Under the pieces are notes generated by a model, which saw only the letters and a list, made by a program, of their open reading frames with translations, had not been told where the DNA came from and did no database searches. A program made the position numbers and the translations under genes. From NCBI RefSeq assembly GCF_019704555.1, contig NZ_AP024745.1, forward strand, positions 6,332,501 to 6,396,500: a stretch of DNA of 64,000 nt, written 5' to 3'. Position 1 is the first letter of the stretch. Every line of letters starts with the position of its first letter. Positions 4,097 to 29,226 of this stretch are shown piece after piece. Source of the DNA: Actinoplanes sp. L3-i22 (GTDB lineage: Bacteria; Actinomycetota; Actinomycetes; Mycobacteriales; Micromonosporaceae).

Positions 4097-5022
4097 GCGG
4101 GACCCGCCGAATCTGGCACCGGCCCCGAGGGCAGGCCTGTCGAATCCAGCACCGGCCTCGGGGGCAGACCCGCCGAATCTGGCACCGGCCCCGAAGGCAG
4201 ACCTGCCGGATCCAGCACCGACCTCGGGGGCAGACCTGCCGGATCCAGCACCGACCTCGGGGGCGGACCTGCTGGATCCAGCGCCGGCCCCGAGGGCGGG
4301 CCCGCCGGATCTGGCGCTTTCCCTGAGGGCTGGCCTGCGGCGATCTTGTAGCCGACCCCGTAGACGGTGATCAGCTGGGCCGGCCGCTGCGGATCAGACT
4401 CGATCTTGCGGCGGAGGTTCATCACGTGGACGTCGATGGTCCGCTCGGTCGAGCTCCGGTCGATCCCCCGCGTGTGGTGCAGCAGCTGCGCCCGGGTGAA
4501 CACCCGATCGGGCTGCTCCGCCATCGCGGCCAGGATCGCGAACTCGCCGCGCGTGCACTCGACCTCGACACCGTCCACGGTCACGTGCCGCCCGGTCAGG
4601 TCGACGCCGAGCCGGCCGATCCGCCGCACGTGCGAGCCGGCCGGCTCGGACGCGCCCCGCGACGCCCGGCGCAGGAGCGTGCGCACCCGGGCCATCAGCT
4701 CGCGCGGGCTGTACGGCTTCGTCAGGTAGTCGTCGGCCCCCAGCTCCAGCCCGAGCAGCAGGTCGTCCTCGCTGGTCCGGGCGGTCAGCATCAGCACCAG
4801 CACGTCGGACTCCGACCGCAGCGTCCGGCACACCTGCAGCCCGTCGAGGCCGGGCATCATCACGTCGAGCACCAGCAGGTCCGGCCGCCAGCGCCGGGCC
4901 TCGTCGAGCGCGGCCCGCCCGTCGTGCACGACGAGCGCCTCGTGGCCCGCCGCGGTCAGGTACCGCCGGACCACCTCCGCCTGCCGGGGATCGTCGTCGG
5001 CGACCAGGACCTTCGCACACAT
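4093..5022 (-). CDS. OmpR-family response regulator with repeat tail
   Basis: Predicted 309-residue DNA-binding response regulator. The receiver domain (residues 1-115) has the acidic cluster D9-D11, phosphoacceptor Asp53 (LDVMMPG), Thr80 and Lys102 (TKPYS). A winged-helix Trans_reg_C domain follows (about 135-229, ending TVYGVGYKIA). The family normally ends there, near 230 residues. Here a 79-residue Pro/Gly/Ser/Asp-rich tail continues, made of 11-residue repeats such as DPAGLPPRSVL from residue 238 to the end. It is the first gene of the regulator-kinase operon and diverges from the efflux adaptor at 5114, its likely target. Confidence 0.93.
   Translation of the reverse strand: MCAKVLVADDDPRQAEVVRRYLTAAGHEALVVHDGRAALDEARRWRPDLLVLDVMMPGLDGLQVCRTLRSESDVLVLMLTARTSEDDLLLGLELGADDYLTKPYSPRELMARVRTLLRRASRGASEPAGSHVRRIGRLGVDLTGRHVTVDGVEVECTRGEFAILAAMAEQPDRVFTRAQLLHHTRGIDRSSTERTIDVHVMNLRRKIESDPQRPAQLITVYGVGYKIAAGQPSGKAPDPAGPPSGPALDPAGPPPRSVLDPAGLPPRSVLDPAGLPSGPVPDSAGLPPRPVLDSTGLPSGPVPDSAGPA
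4096..4311 (-). repeat. 33-bp tandem repeats encoding the response regulator tail
   Basis: Six full units plus a partial one, each 33 bp, encode degenerate 11-residue repeats of the form D(P/S)(A/T)G(L/P)P(P/S)(R/G)(S/P)(V/A)(L/P) in the C-terminal tail of the OmpR-type regulator (residues 238-309). Units alternate between PPRSVL-type and PSGPVP-type endings, which suggests expansion of a dimer. Confidence 0.85.
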
Positions 5023-5113
5023 GGCGGCGATGATAGGGCGGCCCCGCGCGGGCGCGGCGAACTTCCTCGCATACCTGACAGCTTTCTAACGATCTCCGGC
5101 CACGCTCGTCGCC

Positions 5114-6388
5114 ATGCATCCGAAGGCCGACGCGCCCACCGCCGTGATCCCGATCGTCCCGCAGCCGCCGCCGCGCCGGCCCGGGCGCGTGAAGTGGCTG
5201 GTGACGGCGCTGGTCGTGGCGCTCGCGGTGGGCGGCGCGACGGTCGCGGTGACCCGCCACCGGGCGGGTCACCGCGAGCCGGTGGCTGAGGAGAGCGCTC
5301 AGGTCGAGACGGTGCCGCTGGCACGCCGTGACCTGTCGACGACGAAGAAACTGGACGGCAGCATCGGTTTCGGCCCGCCGCGCCCCCTCGCCGGGCACAC
5401 CGAGGCGACCGTGACCTGGCTGCCGGCGGTCGGCACCACGATCAAACGCGGTCAGCAACTGTTCCGCGCCGACGACAAGCCGGTCACCCTCTTCTACGGC
5501 AATATGCCGCTATATCGGGCAATAGCGGCGCCCAACCAGATCGGCCGCGACATCCGGATCATTGCCGAAAACCTCAAATCCCTGGGGTACGCCATCGGCC
5601 GCCAGCCGTCACCCGGCGAAAGCGTCACCCCCGCCGCGGCCACAGCCGGAGACACCGCCCCGACCACAGCCGGAGACACTCCCCCGAGCACGGACGAAGC
5701 CACTTCCCCGGGCGCCGGCGCAACTCAGGCGAAGGTGAAGGCGAAGGTGAAGGTGAAGGTCAAGGACGGCGAGAGCGTCCTCACCCCAGCACTGATCAAG
5801 GCGATCAAGAAGTGGCAGGAGGCCATCGGCCGCCCGATCACCGGCCGGATCGCGGTCGGTGACGTCGAGGTGCTGGCCGGCGCGATCCGCGTCGACTCGA
5901 TCGCGGTCCAGCCCGGCTCCCCGGCGAACGCCCCGCTGATGGCGGTCACCCCGACCCGCAAGGTGATCACGGTCGCCGCGGCGCTGAGCGAGGCCGCCGC
6001 CCTGCGACGCGGCGACCGGGTCACGGTGACGCTGCCCGACGACCGTACCGTCAAGGCCCGGATCCTCGCCGTGGGCCGCGACCTGGCCGCGCCGGAGGGT
6101 GGCGTCGCCGCAGGCGAGCCGAAGTTGACGGTTTCGGTCACGGTCGACGACCCGAAGACCATCGACCGTCTCGACGCGGCCGACGTCGCGGTCAACGTCA
6201 CCGGCCGGACCGCCGAGGACGTGCTGGCCGTGCCGATCGAGGCGCTGATCGCGCTGAGCGAGGGCGGCTACGCCGTGCAGGGCCCGAACGGCCTGGTCGC
6301 GGTCGTCACCGGGATGTTCGCCGACGGCTTCGTCGAGGTCACCGGCGCCGGCCTGACCGAGGGCATGCCGGTGGTGGTCGCGTCATGA
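5114..6388 (+). CDS. efflux periplasmic-adaptor-like protein with peptidoglycan-binding-like domain
   Basis: Predicted 424-residue membrane-anchored protein, TM about residues 28-46. Domain order resembles actinobacterial HlyD/MacA-like adaptors: an N-terminal beta-barrel half, a lipoyl-like strand (TWLPAVGTTIKRGQQLFRAD), a peptidoglycan-binding-like segment (about 218-255, ALIKAIKKWQEAIGRP), then the second barrel half with the MFP-like ending. Within it is a low-complexity insertion of roughly 40 residues, including two TAGDT repeats and a run of alternating Lys and Val. It is divergent from the two-component operon and overlaps the next short frame by ATGA. It should work with an ABC transporter in drug or peptide export, but the ATPase is missing here (see 6385-6471). 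Confidence 0.85.
   Translation: MHPKADAPTAVIPIVPQPPPRRPGRVKWLVTALVVALAVGGATVAVTRHRAGHREPVAEESAQVETVPLARRDLSTTKKLDGSIGFGPPRPLAGHTEATVTWLPAVGTTIKRGQQLFRADDKPVTLFYGNMPLYRAIAAPNQIGRDIRIIAENLKSLGYAIGRQPSPGESVTPAAATAGDTAPTTAGDTPPSTDEATSPGAGATQAKVKAKVKVKVKDGESVLTPALIKAIKKWQEAIGRPITGRIAVGDVEVLAGAIRVDSIAVQPGSPANAPLMAVTPTRKVITVAAALSEAAALRRGDRVTVTLPDDRTVKARILAVGRDLAAPEGGVAAGEPKLTVSVTVDDPKTIDRLDAADVAVNVTGRTAEDVLAVPIEALIALSEGGYAVQGPNGLVAVVTGMFADGFVEVTGAGLTEGMPVVVAS
5640..5768 (+). repeat. low-complexity insertion in the adaptor gene
   Basis: A 16-bp sequence CCACAGCCGGAGACAC is repeated at 5640-5655 and 5664-5679, and a 6-bp AAGGTG-type repeat runs from 5732 to about 5765, encoding KVKAKVKVKVKVKD. The stretch interrupts the region that normally leads straight into the peptidoglycan-binding-like domain. 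Confidence 0.8.
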
Positions 6389-6471
6389 TCACGCGGCTCA
6401 CCCACGACCGCGACCTCGCCGGGTCGCTACCCCGCCGGGGAAAAACCCGCGACGGGCGGCCGGCCCGATGA
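6385..6471 (+). pseudogene. remnant of a MacB-type ABC ATPase gene
   Basis: A 28-codon in-frame ORF lies exactly between adaptor and permease. Its ATG overlaps the adaptor stop (ATGA at 6385-6388) and its TGA overlaps the permease start (ATGA at 6468-6471). The product reads MITRLTHDRDLAGSLPRR, then four residues, then RDGR. This closely resembles the extreme C-terminus of MacB/LolD-type ATPases, where the H-loop (ITHDRDLA) is followed by LPRR and a final RDGR strand. Walker A, signature and Walker B are absent. Best explanation: a large in-frame internal deletion of the ATPase gene that kept both translational couplings. Alternatively it could be a chance short ORF, but the family-like sequence and double coupling argue against that. 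Confidence 0.7.
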
Positions 6472-7646
6472 GCCCGCTGGACCTGCTGGACCTGGGCCTG
6501 GTCGGGTTGCGGACCCGCCCCGCCCGGGCCGCGCTCTCCGCCCTGGGGATCGCGATCGGCATCGCCACCATGATCGTGGTGACCGGCATCCCGGCGTCGA
6601 GCCAGGCCGCGCTGGTCACGAAGCTGAGCGCGCTGGGCACGAACACCCTGCAGGCGATGGCGGTGCCGGACATGGATCCGCCGGCCGCGCTGCCGGAGTC
6701 CGCGGTGGAGATGGTCCGCCGGATCGGCCCGGTCACCGCCGGGAGCGCGGTGGCGAACACCCATGCTTTCGTACGCCGTAACGACCGTCTCGACGCGAAC
6801 AACGCCGCCGGCCTGACCGTCCTGGCCACCCGCCTCGACCTGCTGCCGACGATCAACGCCCGCGTCCGGTCCGGGTCGTGGCTGACCCCGGCCACCGAGC
6901 GGTTCCCGGCCGTGGTCCTCGGCTCGGTCGCCGCGAACCGGCTCGGCGTCACCGATCTGCCGCCCGGCACGCCCGCGCCCCAGGTCGTGATCGCCGACCG
7001 GGCGTTCACCGTGGTCGGCATCCTGGCGACCACCCCGCTGACCCCGGACATCGACCGGTCGGTGCTGGTCGGCTGGCCGGTCGCGAAGTCCGAGCTGGGC
7101 TTCGACGGGCATCCGACGGTGCTCTACGTGCAGGCCGAGGAGGCGCGGATCGAGGCGGTCCGCGGCGTGCTCGCCGAGACGATCTCCCCGGAGCGGCCGG
7201 GCGCGGTGACGGTCACCCGCCCGTCCGACGCGCTGGCCGCCAAGCGCGCCACCGAGCGCAGCTTCTCGGTGCTGTTCCTGGCGCTGGCCGGGGTCGCCCT
7301 GGTGGTCGGCGGGATCGGGGTGGCCAACACGATGGTCGTCTCGGTCCTGGAACGCCGGTCGGAGATCGGCCTGCGCCGCGCGCTGGGCGCCACCCGCGGC
7401 CAGATCCGTGGCCAGTTCCTGACCGAGTCGGTGGTCCTGGCCACGGCCGGCGGGCTGATCGGCACGGCGCTCGGCCTGCTCGCCACGGCCGGTTACGCGA
7501 GCTGGCAGGACTGGCCGGTGGTGCTCCCAGCGCGGTCAGCGGCGCTGGGAGTCGGCGGGGCGATCGTGATCGGGGTGCTGGCCGGGGTGTATCCCTGCGT
7601 CCGCGCGGCACGGCTGACCCCGACGCAGGCGCTGGCCACTGTCTAG
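6468..7646 (+). CDS. ABC transporter permease, MacB/FtsX-like
   Basis: Predicted 392-residue inner-membrane permease. TM1 is at about residues 21-40, followed by a large extracytoplasmic MacB-type periplasmic core domain (about 45-260), then three C-terminal TM segments. The FtsX-family hallmark ERRSEIGLRRALGATRGQI lies between the second and third TM. It would couple with the adaptor at 5114 and an ATPase that is deleted at this locus, so it either borrows an ATPase from elsewhere or is non-functional. The start is set by the ATGA overlap with the remnant ORF. It ends 14 bp from the convergent lipoprotein gene. Confidence 0.9.
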   Translation: MSPLDLLDLGLVGLRTRPARAALSALGIAIGIATMIVVTGIPASSQAALVTKLSALGTNTLQAMAVPDMDPPAALPESAVEMVRRIGPVTAGSAVANTHAFVRRNDRLDANNAAGLTVLATRLDLLPTINARVRSGSWLTPATERFPAVVLGSVAANRLGVTDLPPGTPAPQVVIADRAFTVVGILATTPLTPDIDRSVLVGWPVAKSELGFDGHPTVLYVQAEEARIEAVRGVLAETISPERPGAVTVTRPSDALAAKRATERSFSVLFLALAGVALVVGGIGVANTMVVSVLERRSEIGLRRALGATRGQIRGQFLTESVVLATAGGLIGTALGLLATAGYASWQDWPVVLPARSAALGVGGAIVIGVLAGVYPCVRAARLTPTQALATV

Positions 7647-15282: not shown

Positions 15283-16635
15283 GTGACCATTCCTGAGCAG
15301 CGTCCGGATACGTCGGCATACGGACCCGGGCAGCATTGGCCGGTCAACACCGGCTGGACTCCGCAGGGGCAGTGGGTGGGCCAGGGCCAGTGGCCGGCCC
15401 CGTCCGGCTGGCCCCCGCAGCCGGAGCCGCCCCGGCGGCGCACCGGCCGGACGGCCGCCCTGGTCGGCGGCGGGCTCGCGGTGCTCCTGGTGACCGCGGG
15501 CGGCGGCTTCGCGGCGGGCTGGTCGATGAAGCCCGCCCCGGCCGCCCAGTCCAGCGCGACCTCGCCCTACCTTCCGTTCGACCCGGGGGCCGGAAGCGGG
15601 TCGCAGTTCGGCGGCGCCGACCCGGGCTCCGGGTCCGGCACCGGCACCGGCACCGGCTCGGGCGGCACCACCGCCTCGGGCGGCGCCACGCAGGACCAGG
15701 TCGCCGCGGTCGCCGCGAAGGTGGACCCGGCGCTCGTCGACATCGACACCGTGCTCGGCGCGCAGAACGCGGCGGCGGCCGGCACCGGCATCGTGATCGC
15801 CGCCGACGGGATCGTGCTCACCAACAACCACGTGGTCGCGGGCGCCACCAGCATCACCGTCACCGACATCGGGAACCACAAGGCGTACCGGGCGGCCGTG
15901 ATCGGATACGACCGCTCGCACGACATCGCGGTGCTGCGGCTCTCCGGCGCGTCCGGGCTGACCACCGCGACGCTGGCGACCGCCACGGTCAAGGAGGGCG
16001 ACCCGGTGGTGGCGATCGGCAACGCCGGCGGCACCGGGGGCACCCCGAGCGCGGTCGGCGGGGCGGTCGCCGCCCTCGACCAGTCGATCACCGCGTCCGA
16101 CGAGTCGACCGGCGCGTCCGAGAAGCTGACCGGCCTGATCGAGGTCAACGCGGACATCGAGGCCGGCGACTCGGGCGGCCCGCTGCTGACCACCTCCGGC
16201 GAGGTGATCGGCGTGGACACCGCGGCGTCGACCGGGTTCCAGTACCAGGCCGCCGGCGGCGACGGCTACGCGATCCCGATCAGCGCCGCGATGAAGATCG
16301 CCGACGCGATCCGGGGCGGGACGGCGTCCAGCAGCGTGCACCTCGGGTCGACGGCGTACCTCGGCATCGAGACGACCAGCAGCGAGCGCGGCTCGCAGGG
16401 CGTGACCGGGCCGGTGGTCCTCGGCGTGGTCAGCGGCTCCCCGGCCGCCTCCGCGGGCCTCGCCCGGGGCGACGTGATCACCGCGGTGGCGGGCACCCCG
16501 GTCGCCTCGGCGACCGACCTGACCAACCTGCTCGACCACTACCACCCCGGCGACAAGGTGCGGATCGCCTGGACCGACGTCAGCGGCCGCTCACTCAGCG
16601 CGACCGCGAAGCTGGCCACCGGCCCGGTCGGCTGA
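15283..16635 (+). CDS. membrane-anchored HtrA/DegP-like serine protease with PDZ domain
   Basis: Predicted 450-residue surface protease. A cytoplasmic Pro/Gln/Trp-rich N-terminus (1-55) precedes one TM segment (about 57-80) and a Gly/Ser/Thr-rich linker with a GTGTGTGSG run. The trypsin-like domain has a full triad: His183 (TNNHVVAG), Asp214 (SHDIAVLRL) and Ser297 (AGDSGGPLL). A PDZ domain follows (about 360-445, with VVSGSPAASAGLARGDVI). It is expected to degrade or sense misfolded envelope proteins. The start is GTG at 15283 with GGGAG upstream. It converges with map across a hairpin terminator. Confidence 0.93.
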   Translation: MTIPEQRPDTSAYGPGQHWPVNTGWTPQGQWVGQGQWPAPSGWPPQPEPPRRRTGRTAALVGGGLAVLLVTAGGGFAAGWSMKPAPAAQSSATSPYLPFDPGAGSGSQFGGADPGSGSGTGTGTGSGGTTASGGATQDQVAAVAAKVDPALVDIDTVLGAQNAAAAGTGIVIAADGIVLTNNHVVAGATSITVTDIGNHKAYRAAVIGYDRSHDIAVLRLSGASGLTTATLATATVKEGDPVVAIGNAGGTGGTPSAVGGAVAALDQSITASDESTGASEKLTGLIEVNADIEAGDSGGPLLTTSGEVIGVDTAASTGFQYQAAGGDGYAIPISAAMKIADAIRGGTASSSVHLGSTAYLGIETTSSERGSQGVTGPVVLGVVSGSPAASAGLARGDVITAVAGTPVASATDLTNLLDHYHPGDKVRIAWTDVSGRSLSATAKLATGPVG

Positions 16636-20453: not shown

Positions 20454-20479
20454 CCGGCCGGACCGGTCGCGGCGGGGTC
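20441..20479. terminator. nested hairpin between convergent genes
   Basis: Outer arms GACCCCGC (20441-20448) and GCGGGGTC (20472-20479) enclose an inner hairpin GACCGG-CCGGA-CCGGTC (20452-20468). It overlaps both stop codons and probably ends transcription from both sides. Confidence 0.6.
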
Positions 20480-21836
20480 ATGCCCGATCGCCGTCCACGA
20501 GCTCACGCACGCCGGCCGGATCAGGCTGGCGGCCGCCGGCCGCCTCCAGCAGCGCACGGAGCAGGACGTCGAACAGCCCGGGCGACAGTTCCGGCGCGGC
20601 GAACACCTCCGCCTGGCCGGGCAGCCCGGACGGCGGCACCGGCAGACCGATCAGCAGCACCCAGGGACGCAGCCCCGGATTGCCGTCCGCGGCCCGGCCC
20701 CCGGTCAACTGGCCGGCCAGCAGGCCGACCGCCGTCGCGACATCCGTGGTTCCCTCCTCCGCCGGCACCCGGATCTCGTCGCCCTCGTCGAACGGTTCCC
20801 GGAGGACCACCGGCTCCGGACCGGCCGCCACCACCCCGATACCGATGTACCGCACCAGGTCCGGATGCGCGTCCCGGACCTCGAGCAGGTTGCCGATCTG
20901 GGTCTCGAGCTCCTCGCGCCGCCCGGTGGTCGGATCGACGACCAGGTAGAGCGTCCAGGGCGGCTGGCCCCAGGCCGGTAGCGGCTCGGCGCCCGGGATC
21001 ATCCCGGGCGCCGGGCTCAGCAGCTGAGCGGCCGCGCCGACGAACGGCTCCACGTCACTGGACTGGATCAGCCCGTTCGTCAACAACATCTCGAAGAGTT
21101 TCTGCCGGTTGTCGCGGTCCGCCCCTTCGAGCCGGGCGAGCACGTTCAGCGCGGTCTCGGTGTCCTGGGGATTGCGCGCCAGATGCAGCGCGATGAGGCT
21201 GCGGACATCGCCGATCGGCGCGTCCGGCCGGCGGGCCCTCTCCAGTTCGTGCGCCTGCTCCTGCCGAAGTCGTTCGACCTCGTGCCTTGCCGCCGCCGTC
21301 TCGCGATCGAAACCTGCCTCGTAGCGTTTCCGCAGGAAGTCACGGGCCAGCGGGTCGAGCGTCAGATGGACCGCCAAGCGGTACACCGTGATGCCCACCT
21401 CGTAGGGCCGCGGGCTGTCGAAGGCGGTCCGCGCCGCGTGTTCGGCCATCGTCACCTCCACCGCCGAGAATCGCCGGCAGACGTCGCGCAGCTCATCGTG
21501 CAGCCGGGCACGAAGATGGTCCGTCCCCGAGTTGACGCCGCGCCGGACGATCTCCATCGGGTCGTGGACGCGCCAGCCCACCTGGACCTGGGCGGAGAAC
21601 GACAGTGCCTCCTCGACACTGGGCAGCCCGTCGAACGTCAGGACCTCCTCGTGATCGGTGACGTCGACCTCATAGGCGAACCGTGCCGACCGTGGCGCCA
21701 CGCCCCCGTTCGCCACGAAGAGCGAGCCGTCCGCCGTCGAGCAGACCGTCGCCGTGCCGATCCCGGCCATCCGGCGACCGGAGAACAGGCCGACCGCCCG
21801 TTGCGACCGGATGAGAGCCTGGCCGTCACCGATCAT
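20478..21836 (-). CDS. SPFH/band-7-like protein, third gene of unknown cassette
   Basis: Predicted 452-residue protein. Residues about 60-230 look like an SPFH/band-7 core: a beta-rich segment (SAQVQVGWRVHDPMEIVRRG), a helix bearing an RLHDELRDVCRRF-type motif, a strand YEVGITVYRLAVHL, then a charged coiled-coil helix (about 170-205, DRETAAARHEVERLRQEQAH). Residues about 290-400 form a separate alpha/beta domain (WTLYLVVDPTTGRREELE) that I do not recognise. There is no TM segment or signal peptide. Its ATG overlaps the upstream gene by 11 nt (21826-21836), so it is translated with it. Scaffold or membrane-platform role is an inference from the SPFH resemblance, which is moderate. Confidence 0.7.
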   Translation of the reverse strand: MIGDGQALIRSQRAVGLFSGRRMAGIGTATVCSTADGSLFVANGGVAPRSARFAYEVDVTDHEEVLTFDGLPSVEEALSFSAQVQVGWRVHDPMEIVRRGVNSGTDHLRARLHDELRDVCRRFSAVEVTMAEHAARTAFDSPRPYEVGITVYRLAVHLTLDPLARDFLRKRYEAGFDRETAAARHEVERLRQEQAHELERARRPDAPIGDVRSLIALHLARNPQDTETALNVLARLEGADRDNRQKLFEMLLTNGLIQSSDVEPFVGAAAQLLSPAPGMIPGAEPLPAWGQPPWTLYLVVDPTTGRREELETQIGNLLEVRDAHPDLVRYIGIGVVAAGPEPVVLREPFDEGDEIRVPAEEGTTDVATAVGLLAGQLTGGRAADGNPGLRPWVLLIGLPVPPSGLPGQAEVFAAPELSPGLFDVLLRALLEAAGGRQPDPAGVRELVDGDRA

Positions 21837-23814
21837 GAGAGAGAGCTCCTTCGTTCATCGCGGCGAAGACCGCCGCGGCCACGTGGGGTGACGTGCGTGG
21901 GGTGCGGTGCGAGACCCAGGTCGTGGCGAGCGTCCGCAGGATGCGCCGGGTTCGGGGGTGATCGCGGGCCATCGACACCACCAGACGGTGAAACGCCGGG
22001 CGGATCGCCGGCTGTGCCTCGGCCACCGACGCCCAGACGGTCAGGACGGTCCGGGCGTCCGTGTCGTAGAACCGCTCGTTGAGAACCCGTTGCCACAGGT
22101 GCACGACGAGGGCGTCCACCTCGGCCGAGGACTCGGCCAGGGCCAGCAGGGTGGGCCATGAGAACCCGGCCCGGTGCTCCGTGGTCAGATCAGTGGCGAG
22201 GACCAGGAAGGCCAGCTGCCCGGTGCGGTTGCGGGACGGATCGCGCACCCGCACCCACTCGGCGATCGTGCGCAGCACGAGGACGGCCGATCGCGGGTCC
22301 CACTCGACAAGTTCGGCGAGGCTGTCGGCGACCGCGAGCGACGCGGTCTGCTGGCCCGTTCCGGCCAGCGCATCCAGCCGGGTGAGGGCGGCGCCGGGGT
22401 CGACGTGCCCGACGCTCGCGCCGAGGGCTCGTCCCGCCGCCGCGCTCAACGCCGGTGTGCCACTCTCGATCCACCGGTCCAGGGTCCCGCGCACCCGCGC
22501 GTACAGGTGCGGGTCGAGGGAGGGCAGATGCAGGGCGCACGCCGCGGCATCGCGCAGCCTCGGGTCACCGTCCCCGGCCCAGGGCTCGACCACCACGTCT
22601 CGGACATGGTCGAACGCCAGCGTTGCCAGCATGCCCGCGGCCGTCGCAGCGCGGATGCGGACGGCCTCGTCGGGGTCGCCGCCGAGCCCCAGCAGCCAGT
22701 GCAGCAGCACGTGCGGCACGTCGTCGTACTCACTCCAGGCATACCGGAGGACGGCGCTGGGATACGCCGCGTCCCGATACCGGACCGACTCGGTCCGGAC
22801 CTCACCGTCGGGCGTCGTCGCATAGTCGGCGAACACCTCGGCCCGTAACCGTTCCAGGCGCGCGCTCCGCAGATGGTGCCGGGATGCGCGCGGCACATCG
22901 GCGTCGAGCAGCACCGTGACCGCCGGCGCCTCGGCGAAGGCCCGGGCAAGTCGTTCGCCGTGGCGCCGGACCAGGTCGTAGGGCAGTCCGTCGAGCACTG
23001 CCAACGCCAGTGCGTGCCCCCGGTCGTCCCAGCCGGGCAGCGCCGCGAACCAGTCGTCGAGCTCGCCCTCGGCACGCCGCCGCAGGTCCCGCAGAGCCAC
23101 ACCGTCGGCGGGCGCCCGGGCGCCGGTCATCCCCTCCACCAGCCGATCCAACTGATGTGGCCGGTTGCCCAGCGCCGGGCCGATGAGCTGCCCGGGCGTC
23201 ACCCTCGCATCGAGTTCAAAGCAGTCCGCCGCGAGTGCCTGCCGCAGGCCGCCCTCGGGCCGCGCGGCGACCACCAGGCGGGACCGCAGCGGGCCGATCG
23301 CGGCGCGGACCAGGCGCAACAGTCCGGCGATGCGGACATCGTCGGCGTCGTCCCCGGTCTGGTCCAGAAGGTAGCCACAGGAGGCGTGGAACTGCTCGCC
23401 CATCGGAGTGCTCCGCAGGCCGGCCGCAGTGAGCCGGTACATCCCGTCGTGGTTCTGGTCGCGCAGCAACCGCACGGCGGTCGGCACGCTGACGTCCGGA
23501 TCATCGGAGAGCAGGACCGTCATCGGCCGATGGGTGCTGAACTTCAGCAGCTCGGCGTAGCCCGCCGAACCGGTGTCGACCGGGTCGGCCAGCGCCATCG
23601 TCGCGGCATCCAGCGCGGACGGACCGGTGACCGGCGCGGCCACCGCCGGCTCCGGATACTGGTGGTAGATGACGTCGCCGGCCACGAAGTCGCGGCCGGC
23701 CTCCGCCCCGCCGAAGAAGACCCGCCCGGCCAGCCGCCGTGCGCGGGCGAGACGTGAGCCGGCCCCCAGGCCGTTCGGCGGATCGGAGTCCGGGCTCGGC
23801 TCAGGACGCGTCAT
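21826..23814 (-). CDS. STAND-like, P-loop-less HEAT-repeat protein, second gene of cassette
   Basis: Predicted 662-residue cytoplasmic protein without an assigned family. The N-terminus carries the motif RDFVAGDVIYHQ (41-52), nearly the same as in the upstream small protein. Residues about 95-205 follow STAND-NTPase order, with a hydrophobic strand where the P-loop should be (MTVLLSDDPDVSVPTAVRLL; no GxxxxGK[ST]), a Walker-B-like GYLLDQTGDD (147-156) and a sensor-1-like RLVVAARPE. Residues about 240-300 could be the winged-helix region. From about 345 onward there are helical HEAT-like repeats. Overlaps upstream gene by 14 nt and downstream gene by 11 nt. An inactive-STAND sensor or scaffold in a conflict system fits best. 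Confidence 0.72.
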   Translation of the reverse strand: MTRPEPSPDSDPPNGLGAGSRLARARRLAGRVFFGGAEAGRDFVAGDVIYHQYPEPAVAAPVTGPSALDAATMALADPVDTGSAGYAELLKFSTHRPMTVLLSDDPDVSVPTAVRLLRDQNHDGMYRLTAAGLRSTPMGEQFHASCGYLLDQTGDDADDVRIAGLLRLVRAAIGPLRSRLVVAARPEGGLRQALAADCFELDARVTPGQLIGPALGNRPHQLDRLVEGMTGARAPADGVALRDLRRRAEGELDDWFAALPGWDDRGHALALAVLDGLPYDLVRRHGERLARAFAEAPAVTVLLDADVPRASRHHLRSARLERLRAEVFADYATTPDGEVRTESVRYRDAAYPSAVLRYAWSEYDDVPHVLLHWLLGLGGDPDEAVRIRAATAAGMLATLAFDHVRDVVVEPWAGDGDPRLRDAAACALHLPSLDPHLYARVRGTLDRWIESGTPALSAAAGRALGASVGHVDPGAALTRLDALAGTGQQTASLAVADSLAELVEWDPRSAVLVLRTIAEWVRVRDPSRNRTGQLAFLVLATDLTTEHRAGFSWPTLLALAESSAEVDALVVHLWQRVLNERFYDTDARTVLTVWASVAEAQPAIRPAFHRLVVSMARDHPRTRRILRTLATTWVSHRTPRTSPHVAAAVFAAMNEGALSHDR

Positions 23815-24100
23815 CGTCGCCGGGACGCTGCTGATAGGTCACGTCGCCGACGACGAAGTCCCGCCGAGCCGTCACGTCGCCGTGGATCGTGACTCCGCCC
23901 GCCGGAGGCCCGGTTGCCGCGCCCCCGCGGAGACCGAGAACTGTCAGGACGATCGCCGCGATGTTCAGGAACAGGCCGAGAACGCTGGCAAGCTTGTCGG
24001 CCCGATCGAGTCCGGCCCGGATCAGGAAGACGCCGAGGCCGGCCAGGAGGACAGCGGCACCGATGAACAGGCAAGCTCGCGCGGCACGACCCATGCCCAC
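23801..24100 (-). CDS. small two-TM protein with C-terminal RDFVVGDV motif, first gene of cassette
   Basis: Predicted 99 residues from GTG at 24100 (97 from ATG at 24094). Two hydrophobic helices (about 9-27 and 37-57) are followed by a cytoplasm- or surface-facing tail GGVTIHGDVTARRDFVVGDV then TYQQRPGDDDAS. The tail motif RDFVVGDVTYQQ (80-91) matches RDFVAGDVIYHQ at the N-terminus of the next protein. The pattern of a short shared, beta-prone motif on a small membrane protein and on a STAND-like partner resembles homotypic (including amyloid-type) signalling motifs. Its stop overlaps the start of the next gene by 14 nt. No Shine-Dalgarno sequence is visible, so it may be leaderless. Confidence 0.72.
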   Translation of the reverse strand: MGMGRAARACLFIGAAVLLAGLGVFLIRAGLDRADKLASVLGLFLNIAAIVLTVLGLRGGAATGPPAGGVTIHGDVTARRDFVVGDVTYQQRPGDDDAS

Positions 24101-27430: not shown

Positions 27431-28273
27431 ATGCGGCGGTCGGCGGTCATCGACACAGCCCGTGGTCTGAGCCTGCACGACCACGTCGGCTGGGTCTTCG
27501 AGCAGCCCGCCGACTTCCGGGCCAACGCCGGCCAGTTCCTCGCCGACGGCCTGGCCGCGCGCGAGCGGATCCTCTACGTCGGCGGCGCCGGGACAGCCAC
27601 GCCGCTCGGCCTCGACGGGCTGGCCGCCGCGATCGCCGGCGGCCAGGCCGAGGTCACCTCGATCGGGCAGATGTACAGCGCCGGCGAGCCGATCGAGCCC
27701 GAGCGGCAGGTCGACCGGTTCTTCGAGGCCGCCGACCAGGCCCTGGCCGACGGGTGGACCGGGCTGCGGATCGCGGCCGACGTCACCTCGCTGGTCCGGA
27801 CCGACCGGCAGCGCGCCGCCTGGATCCGGTACGAGCATCTGGCCGACGCGTTCATCGCCCGGCGGCCGGTCGCCGGGCTGTGCGGCTTCGACCGCACGGT
27901 GCTGGACCGCACCGCCCTGGCCGAGGCGACCTGCCCGCACGCGGCGCTGACCCCGGGCGGCAGCGAGTTCCGGCTCTACGCCACCGGCGGCCCGGCCGCC
28001 GAGCTGGCGCTGGCCGGCGAGATCGACCCGGACAACCGCCGGGTCCTGGCCGCCGTGCTGCGGCACGCCCGGCCGGCCCCGCGGGACGGCCGGCTCACCG
28101 TCGACGCCACCGCGCTGGCCTTCGTCGACCATCGCGGCCTGGCCCTGCTCGCGGCGTACGCGAACCGGCTGGGCGTGACCGCGGTGCTCCGGGCGCGGGC
28201 CGAGAGCGTCCCGAAGATGATCGCCGATCTGGTGCCGATGGGCGGGCTGGAAGTGCAGGTGGTGTCCGCATGA
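27431..28273 (+). CDS. MEDS-domain plus STAS-domain signalling protein
   Basis: Predicted 280-residue cytoplasmic protein. An N-terminal MEDS domain (about 10-175; SLHDHVGWVFEQPADF and the LADGLAARERILYVGG helix) is followed by a STAS anti-sigma-antagonist-like domain (about 185-280). The serine position usually phosphorylated in STAS partners lies near LAFVDHRGLALL, where the sequence reads VDHRG rather than DSSG, so phospho-switching may be lost. It overlaps the next gene by ATGA. The pair looks like a sensory partner-switching module controlling a sigma factor or anti-sigma factor. Confidence 0.85.
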   Translation: MRRSAVIDTARGLSLHDHVGWVFEQPADFRANAGQFLADGLAARERILYVGGAGTATPLGLDGLAAAIAGGQAEVTSIGQMYSAGEPIEPERQVDRFFEAADQALADGWTGLRIAADVTSLVRTDRQRAAWIRYEHLADAFIARRPVAGLCGFDRTVLDRTALAEATCPHAALTPGGSEFRLYATGGPAAELALAGEIDPDNRRVLAAVLRHARPAPRDGRLTVDATALAFVDHRGLALLAAYANRLGVTAVLRARAESVPKMIADLVPMGGLEVQVVSA

Positions 28274-29226
28274 GGTCCGGGGCCGCGGCCGGCCACTCCG
28301 GTTACTTCCACGAGACCGCCTTCTACGGCTCCGACGAGCAGTTCCTCGCCGTGATCGTGCCGTTCTTCACCGACGGGCTGGCCGCCGGCGAGCCGGTGAT
28401 CTCGACGTTCGCCGCCCGGAACCAGGAGCTGGTCCGCCGGGCGTTCGGCGCCGGCAGCGGGATCGAGTTCCTCGACGGCGGCGAGCAGTACGCGCGGCCC
28501 GCCACCGCGATCCGCCACTACCGCAAGCTCTTCGGGGAGTACACGGCCCGGGGCGTGCACCAGATCCGGGTCGCCGGCGACGTCCCGCACCCGGGCACCG
28601 GCGCGCGGTGGGACTGGTGGGCGAGGTACGAGGCGGCCATCAACCACGCGTACGACGACTTCCCGGTGTGGAGCATCTGCCCGTACGACACCCGTACCGC
28701 CCCGGCGGACGTGCTCGCCGAGGTCCGCCGCACCCATCCGCACGTGGCCGACGCCCACCGGCACGCGGCCAATCCGGCCTTCGTGGACCCGGTCGACTTC
28801 CTGCGCGCCCGGTCGGACACCTGGCGTGACCCGATCGAGCAGGGCCCGCCCTGGCTGGAGCTGGTCGACCCGACCCCGGTGCGGGTGCGCGCCGCCGTCA
28901 CCGCGGCCGCCGCCGGCAGCGCGCTGACCCGCGACGACCTCAACGGCCTGCTGGTGGCGGTGAGCGAGGCGGTGGCCAACGGGCTGCTGCACGGCAAGCC
29001 GCCGGTGACCGTCCGGGCGTGGGCGGCGCCCCGGCGCGTCGTGGTCACCGTGACCGACGCCGGGGAGGGCCCCCGGGAGCCGTACGCCGGGCTGCTCCCC
29101 GCGGACCGGCCGGCCGGCAGCGGTGGGCTCGGGCTGTGGATCAGCCACCAGATGTGCGGCTTCGTCGGCCTGCACCGGGGCCCGGAGGGCTTCACCATCC
29201 GCCTGGTCGCCGGCGAGCTCGACTGA
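28270..29226 (+). CDS. MEDS-domain plus HATPase (anti-sigma/histidine kinase-like) protein
   Basis: Predicted 318-residue protein. The N-terminal MEDS domain (about 10-180; YFHETAFYGSDEQFLAVIVP) resembles that of its neighbour, and a C-terminal GHKL ATPase (about 205-318) has the N-box LLVAVSEAVANGLLHG, VTDAGEGP and GGLGLWISHQMC. No phospho-accepting His domain is present, so RsbW-type serine kinase or anti-sigma activity is more likely than a classical sensor kinase. ATGA overlap with the upstream MEDS-STAS gene makes the two a co-translated switch. Its target is unknown; a SigB/SigF-family sigma factor is encoded at 63172 but not linked. Confidence 0.87.
   Translation: MRSGAAAGHSGYFHETAFYGSDEQFLAVIVPFFTDGLAAGEPVISTFAARNQELVRRAFGAGSGIEFLDGGEQYARPATAIRHYRKLFGEYTARGVHQIRVAGDVPHPGTGARWDWWARYEAAINHAYDDFPVWSICPYDTRTAPADVLAEVRRTHPHVADAHRHAANPAFVDPVDFLRARSDTWRDPIEQGPPWLELVDPTPVRVRAAVTAAAAGSALTRDDLNGLLVAVSEAVANGLLHGKPPVTVRAWAAPRRVVVTVTDAGEGPREPYAGLLPADRPAGSGGLGLWISHQMCGFVGLHRGPEGFTIRLVAGELD

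Follow-up and report, generated by a model that had tools for sequence, protein, structure and literature searches.

Candidate BASS-like homotypic signalling by an overlapping three-gene cassette with an SPFH-vWA partner gene in Actinoplanes sp. L3-i22

Systems built on BASS motifs are the described systems to which the locus reported here is most readily likened. In the excerpted descriptions used here (Dyrka 2020, as reported in PMC7889193, PMC8086366 and PMC12261475), these consist of adjacent or overlapping genes with a short motif at the C terminus of the effector and at the N terminus of the receptor; small transmembrane (TM) effectors are described, TIR effectors are mentioned, and the hosts include filamentous actinobacteria. 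BASS, Bell and NLR proteins are treated in Daskalov 2021 (PMC7889193) and Dyrka 2021 (PMC8086366), in the same excerpted form. We analysed a 64,000-nucleotide stretch of the genome of Actinoplanes sp. L3-i22 (contig NZ_AP024745.1, positions 6,332,501 to 6,396,500), hereafter the window, and focused on three overlapping genes in it, which we call A, B and C. Similar short motifs occur at the C terminus of A, the putative effector, and at the N terminus of the adjacent receptor-like B, and, going by the published descriptions of BASS, the window is best read as a candidate new variant of BASS-like homotypic signalling. It is a variant in that a degenerate STAND-like/HEAT protein, accompanied by an SPFH-vWA partner gene, takes the place of the receptor, whereas BASS as described in those excerpts uses a Bell effector and an NLR, and in that relatives of the cassette have cyclase effectors with CRP regulators, of which the excerpted BASS texts make no mention.

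All three genes lie on the minus strand and, as the initial annotation had it, overlap, A and B by 14 nt and B and C by 11 nt. The features of the cassette, in window coordinates and with model confidence given as the predicted local distance difference test (pLDDT) score, are as follows.

23801..24100, minus strand: gene A, a 99-residue two-TM mini-protein with a C-terminal motif tail, a putative membrane effector (GTG start; alternative ATG at 24094)
24017..24073, minus strand: first hydrophobic helix of A, about residues 10-28 (sequence, family alignment and hydropathy)
23930..23992, minus strand: second hydrophobic helix of A, about residues 37-57, after the GLDRADKxAS loop of the family (sequence, family alignment and hydropathy)
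23828..23893, minus strand: tail motif of A, VTIHGDVTARRDFVVGDVTYQQ, residues 70-91
21826..23814, minus strand: gene B, receptor-like, 662 residues, with a head motif, a degenerate P-loop region and a HEAT-type solenoid
23659..23694, minus strand: head motif of B, RDFVAGDVIYHQ, residues 41-52, inside a stretch with pLDDT below 50
23245..23529, minus strand: degenerate P-loop region of B, about residues 96-190, with SDDPDVSVPT in place of Walker A
21844..23097, minus strand: HEAT-type helical solenoid of B, about residues 240-657
20478..21836, minus strand: gene C, a 452-residue SPFH + vWA-like protein
21216..21791, minus strand: SPFH domain of C and the helix that follows, about residues 16-207
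20526..20969, minus strand: vWA-like domain of C, about residues 290-437, of low model confidence (block pLDDT about 40-71)

A gene caller placed the start of B at 23685, which would truncate the head motif; we prefer the start at 23814 because of the shared motif and the A/B overlap. None of the three window proteins had a match above cut-off in Pfam, NCBIfam or PADLOC, and two candidate assignments, A as CLC_0170 (23 bits against a cut-off of 30) and C as FdhE (below cut-off), were unsupported and set aside.

The cassette also resembles the EAD-coupled conflict systems and the iSTAND ternary systems, for which the consulted parts of Kaur 2020 (PMC7159879) and Kaur 2021 (PMC8195603) describe an inactive STAND core, exchangeable TIR, cyclase or protease parts and a repeated adaptor, and in which vWA and Band-7 domains occur. 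It differs from them in that the adaptor here is a short motif, in that Band-7 and vWA are joined in C, and in that no MoxR was found among the 16 neighbour proteins scanned. The iSTAND systems are said, in the part of PMC7159879 consulted, to be almost absent in actinobacteria.

The near-identical 12-residue motif that had been noted in the tail of A and the head of B was borne out at both positions. The 36-nt stretches 23828-23863 and 23659-23694 encode RDFVVGDVTYQQ and RDFVAGDVIYHQ, respectively, which share RDFVxGDVxYxQ (9 of 12 residues identical); 29 of the 36 bases are identical, and of the 7 that differ, 4 leave the encoded residue unchanged by codon reading. The similarity is longer than 12 residues (best-alignment part GVTIHGDVTARRDFVVGDVTYQQRP / GRVFFGGAEAGRDFVAGDVIYHQYP), and its alignment score of 63 was reached by none of 20,000 alignments with both sequences shuffled (maximum 58). 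A degenerate DNA pattern for DFVxGDV had three exact matches in the 12.0-Mb genome, namely the A and B copies and a 75-residue open frame of doubtful coding value; with one mismatch allowed there were 31 matches, of which the frames of 5 were inspected.

The evidence that carries the reading comes from 81 loci with relatives of B, the window included. In 48 diverse loci, in which the B bodies are less than 55% identical, the score between each tail and its cognate head summed to 2344, compared with a permuted mean of 1423 (sd 51, maximum 1685; 0 of 20,000 as high). The count excludes 7 of the 81 loci, in which no upstream open reading frame (ORF) passed the coding filter (L051, L063, L071, L079, L096, L099 and L102), and the A gene of the window was selected by length in these tests, its coding-filter score of 2.9 being one that would pass. 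The own B ranked first for 21 of the 48 effectors (median rank 2), and the window pair ranked first of 48 in both directions. Relatedness alone is insufficient to account for this, because in 35 of 48 loci the own head scored higher than the nearest relative's (13 worse; Wilcoxon p 7e-5) and because the partial correlation of tail with head similarity, given body similarity, was 0.12, a value reached by 2 of 2,000 permutations. The pairs include GGRLAGRDF/GGQLAGRDF (L098), FGNHNTMRN/LGNNNTMHN (L056) and GIIVGDYGTV/GIIVGDNATM (L066), and motif length, judged by eye among the matches listed, is roughly 12-25 residues. In most effectors the tail is similar to the own B head, and the homotypic motif co-varies between the two in a pair-specific manner; co-varying motifs had been named in advance as a sign in favour.

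As for what lies upstream of B, 49 of 74 countable loci matched a class III cyclase profile, 14 a TIR profile, 7 both and 4 neither, at E values up to 0.01; the sequences behind each class profile were themselves drawn from this set. TIR was confirmed by Pfam in one effector (L032, E 1e-9), and a profile search of the PDB linked the cyclase profile to 3mr7, an adenylate/guanylate cyclase of known structure (E 1.4e-9); none of 22 cyclase-like effectors was matched by Pfam. The effector class switches at least 9 or 10 times on the B tree, depending on how states are grouped. These comparisons show the B-C core to be modular: in related loci, other pairs of matching motifs join it to predicted TIR or cyclase effectors. 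The four loci with neither profile are the window, one unassigned and two with a tail-bearing BTAD-type regulator, assigned by Pfam in L053 (4852-5790) and by resemblance in L109, whose tails resemble the adjacent B heads; this suggests that a transcription factor may be the tail-tagged effector in these two. By hydropathy, only the upstream gene of the window has two hydrophobic segments among the 74, and 8 others have one.

A gene for a CRP-type cyclic nucleotide-binding regulator accompanies the cyclase class. With tblastn (E up to 1e-6, any position in the fetched stretch), relatives of this regulator were detected in 41 of 49 cyclase-only loci, 0 of 14 TIR-only loci and 0 of 7 loci with both, or 45 of 81 overall; the regulator in L036 (1459-2145) matches cNMP_binding (6e-17) and HTH_Crp_2 (3e-13) in Pfam. 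Relatives of a vWA gene (L036:4685-5359), a PP2C gene (L036:3694-4695) and a kinase-like gene (L042:11075-12217) were found in 26, 20 and 14 of the 81 loci, respectively. The window has relatives of none of these four genes, which fits a minimal membrane output. Gene starts in the relatives are approximate, being those of our own gene caller. Relatives of the window's locus share with Pycsar, and with further systems based on class III cyclases, a cyclase of this class and in many cases a protein that binds cyclic nucleotides; they differ in that the cyclase is tail-tagged beside B and its likely reader is a CRP-type regulator, and the window has neither. In one clade, a gene downstream of C (L043:6841-7353 and relatives, in 7 of 81 loci) encodes a protein of 165-170 residues with at least two hydrophobic segments, possibly another membrane effector. 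A second relative of B is present in the same genome as the window (L052, C1:9166000-9180000, at 4256-7077), with a cyclase-type effector whose tail MFGNGNTQ matches the B head MYGNGNNQ; the stretch also holds a CRP-type gene.

Gene A is one of a family of mini-proteins that have two TM segments, a GLDRADKxAS loop and tails that vary. In 17 loci, the tails match the downstream gene, with a sum of 880 compared with 592±40 when permuted (maximum 789 of 20,000), and 9 of 17 rank first. The other 22 of 39 loci were left out of this test, L151 for want of an A match and 21 for want of a downstream ORF passing the filter, and three of those left out (L150, L154 and L158) did have matching neighbours. 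Six partners were chosen for a Pfam scan on the strength of their matching heads, and each of them had NTPase-type matches (AAA_16, nSTAND_NTPase5, NACHT or NPHP3_N; 2 above the curated cut-off), and TPR repeats were strong in 2 of the 6. The proposal that a small membrane protein is the effector thus found backing in the two-TM proteins of this family elsewhere, whose tails match neighbouring STAND-like proteins. Because the tails match STAND-like neighbours, and because no relative of B or C was found within the stretches of 38 fetched A-family loci, A looks to be a kind of effector that usually neighbours STAND-like proteins and is here tied to a B-C receptor. Within the genus, with E values of up to 1 allowed, A alone as query gave matches in 66 of 67 genomes, most of them noise due to TM segments only; with a limit of 1e-4, an A profile did so in 54 of 67, a count that still includes TM-only matches in long frames. 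The genome of the window has another A-family mini-protein (L179, C1:5741500-5748500), whose tail GSGDIDSSGGGDANTGV matches the head GSGNVTQTGGGFANTGI of a downstream 819-residue frame.

C had been called SPFH-like, which holds for its fold by predicted structure but not for the protein as a whole, as a vWA-like domain is also present. In structure comparison of the model (pLDDT 67 overall and 72-93 over residues 31-200), residues 16-207 match SPFH structures (stomatin, prohibitin, HflK/C and vault) and residues 290-437 match vWA domains in a part where model confidence is low. By sequence, Band_7 was matched by 2 of 21 C members (best E 0.0019), the C of the window not being among them. Where the metal ion-dependent adhesion site (MIDAS, DxSxS) of a vWA domain would be expected, judged by eye, the C of the window reads VDPTT, and 8 of the 9 long relatives shown have DES at the same place. 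Of the 81 loci, 62, among them the window, have a relative of C at most 4 kb downstream of B, by a profile built from 21 of these 62 rows, and the B of the window sits in a tree set of 31 (SH-aLRT 100) in all of which C is present. The expected co-occurrence therefore holds for the B-C pair and does not extend to the exact A-B-C trio, given that a two-segment effector is found only in the window among 74 and that 0 of 38 A-family loci have B or C. No description of the B-C pair, and no link of SPFH scaffolds or cyclic-nucleotide transcription to NLR-like motif signalling, was found in the literature searched, the coverage of which is partial and lacks Dyrka 2020, so that the link may be known.

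The family of B combines a degenerate STAND-like P-loop with HEAT repeats. The initial annotation of B as STAND-like/HEAT stands for the family and fails for the window protein in respect of the P-loop residues: no intact Walker A (GK[ST]) was found in it, SDDPDVSVPT occupying that site. Walker A is canonical in 7 of 81 B loci, and in 52 of 81 an R replaces the lysine. Among 25 B members examined by profile, nSTAND3 was matched in 3 and HEAT_2 in 3, none had an NB-ARC or NACHT match, and the B of the window had no P-loop NTPase match. In the consulted part of PMC12931631, Avs5 (SIR2-nSTAND3-repeat) is similar in having an nSTAND3-type core with C-terminal helical repeats, and differs in that its effector is part of the same chain, whereas here it is a separate gene and only those 3 of 25 B proteins match nSTAND3. 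Profiles of B and of C found no credible relative among PDB sequences. Residues 32-84 of the B model, which include the head motif, are unstructured (pLDDT below 50). The B of the window is divergent, with a branch of 1.31, a best identity of 33% over 548 columns of the B alignment and a best local match of 39% in the genus search. A profile search found the family in 159 of 300 sampled Micromonosporaceae genomes, and an order-wide search with one relative's B, which as a single query is less sensitive than a profile, was positive in 2 of 101 genomes, the source genome counted; the family thus looks to be centred on Micromonosporaceae.

A defence island was not evident near the cassette: PADLOC matches in 3 of 9 flanking genes (protease, oxidoreductase and methyltransferase-type) were read as generic. 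Elsewhere in the window, 27431-29226 encodes two adjoining MEDS-domain proteins, one with a STAS and the other with a HATPase domain, and 15376-16635 an HtrA-like protease, trypsin-like and with PDZ, which lies some 4 kb away from the cassette and is probably unrelated.

We propose, with moderate confidence, that A, B and C form one BASS-like homotypic switch with B as receptor, C as scaffold and A as membrane effector. B, through its HEAT solenoid and with C as a membrane-linked scaffold, would sense a trigger, possibly phage or another stress; activated B would oligomerise, and its exposed N-terminal motif would turn into a template. The tail motif of A would dock homotypically on this head, the likeliest form being a beta-arch or amyloid-like stack of the sort put forward for BASS, and docking would cluster the two-TM hairpins so that the host's own membrane is damaged or depolarised, leading to suicide or arrest. 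Several observations weigh against this switch: 7 of the 48 pairs rank 27th to 48th (L048, L049, L058, L088, L092, L095 and L106), proline-rich linkers carry some of the tail-head alignments, the window locus is possibly in decay, since its B is divergent, and a weaker control, shuffled A against entire B, reached 64 in 2,000. Because of that control, the similarity within the window is by itself only suggestive, and the relatives decide. The control, together with several relatives that have no clear motif, would fit a functionless tail-head similarity arisen by chance or as a gene-duplication by-product of glycine/aspartate-rich linkers, which we consider highly improbable in view of the pair-specific matching across 48 diverse loci, whose effectors differ in fold, and of the both-shuffled null that never attains the score.

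The pairing statistics do not separate amyloid from other homotypic binding, and the enzyme-like effectors of the relatives might need only to be brought together; it is thus conceivable, if rather unlikely, that the twin motif is a non-amyloid docking module (a small beta element or EAD-like adaptor) tethering A to B, such that B and C regulate A as a membrane complex with no triggered polymerisation. The motifs GIAQTG (L054) and GIVQTG (L050), which we take to resemble RHIM/BASS3, count against such a module. EADs are, in the consulted part of Kaur 2020 (PMC7159879), small domains common to core and effector genes, and most are described there as alpha-helical, whereas the motifs here are short and the B head is unstructured in the model. 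A could instead be a membrane anchor or sensor that keeps B and the SPFH protein tethered to the membrane, with B-C as the output, for example as a microdomain scaffold or in a stress response. SPFH proteins scaffold membranes, C has no TM segment by hydropathy, so that A could supply the membrane link, and Pfam, NCBIfam and PADLOC gave no sign of a catalytic domain in A. We regard this role as unlikely, as A occupies the slot of the TIR and cyclase effectors, whose loci keep B-C without a two-TM upstream partner, and as A-family members with matching tails adjoin STAND-like proteins in loci that have neither B nor C.

Beyond the BASS-like switch in the window, we tentatively suggest that the relatives make up an undescribed receptor-pair family in Micromonosporaceae-type bacteria, in which a pseudo-STAND/HEAT protein and an SPFH-vWA protein would serve at least three outputs (membrane hairpins, TIR, and cyclases with CRP readers) through private, co-varying, amyloid-like plugs. 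If this is true, amyloid-type templating would lead to transcription as well, beyond death, and the window would be a natural effector swap. SPFH membrane scaffolds and cyclic-nucleotide transcription would be tied to NLR-like motif signalling in bacteria, and receptors with no recognisable nucleotide-binding motif would persist in such a design. Further, with tens of effector-receptor pairs that have diverged in nature and have motifs of their own, the specificity of homotypic immune signalling would be testable by tail swaps.

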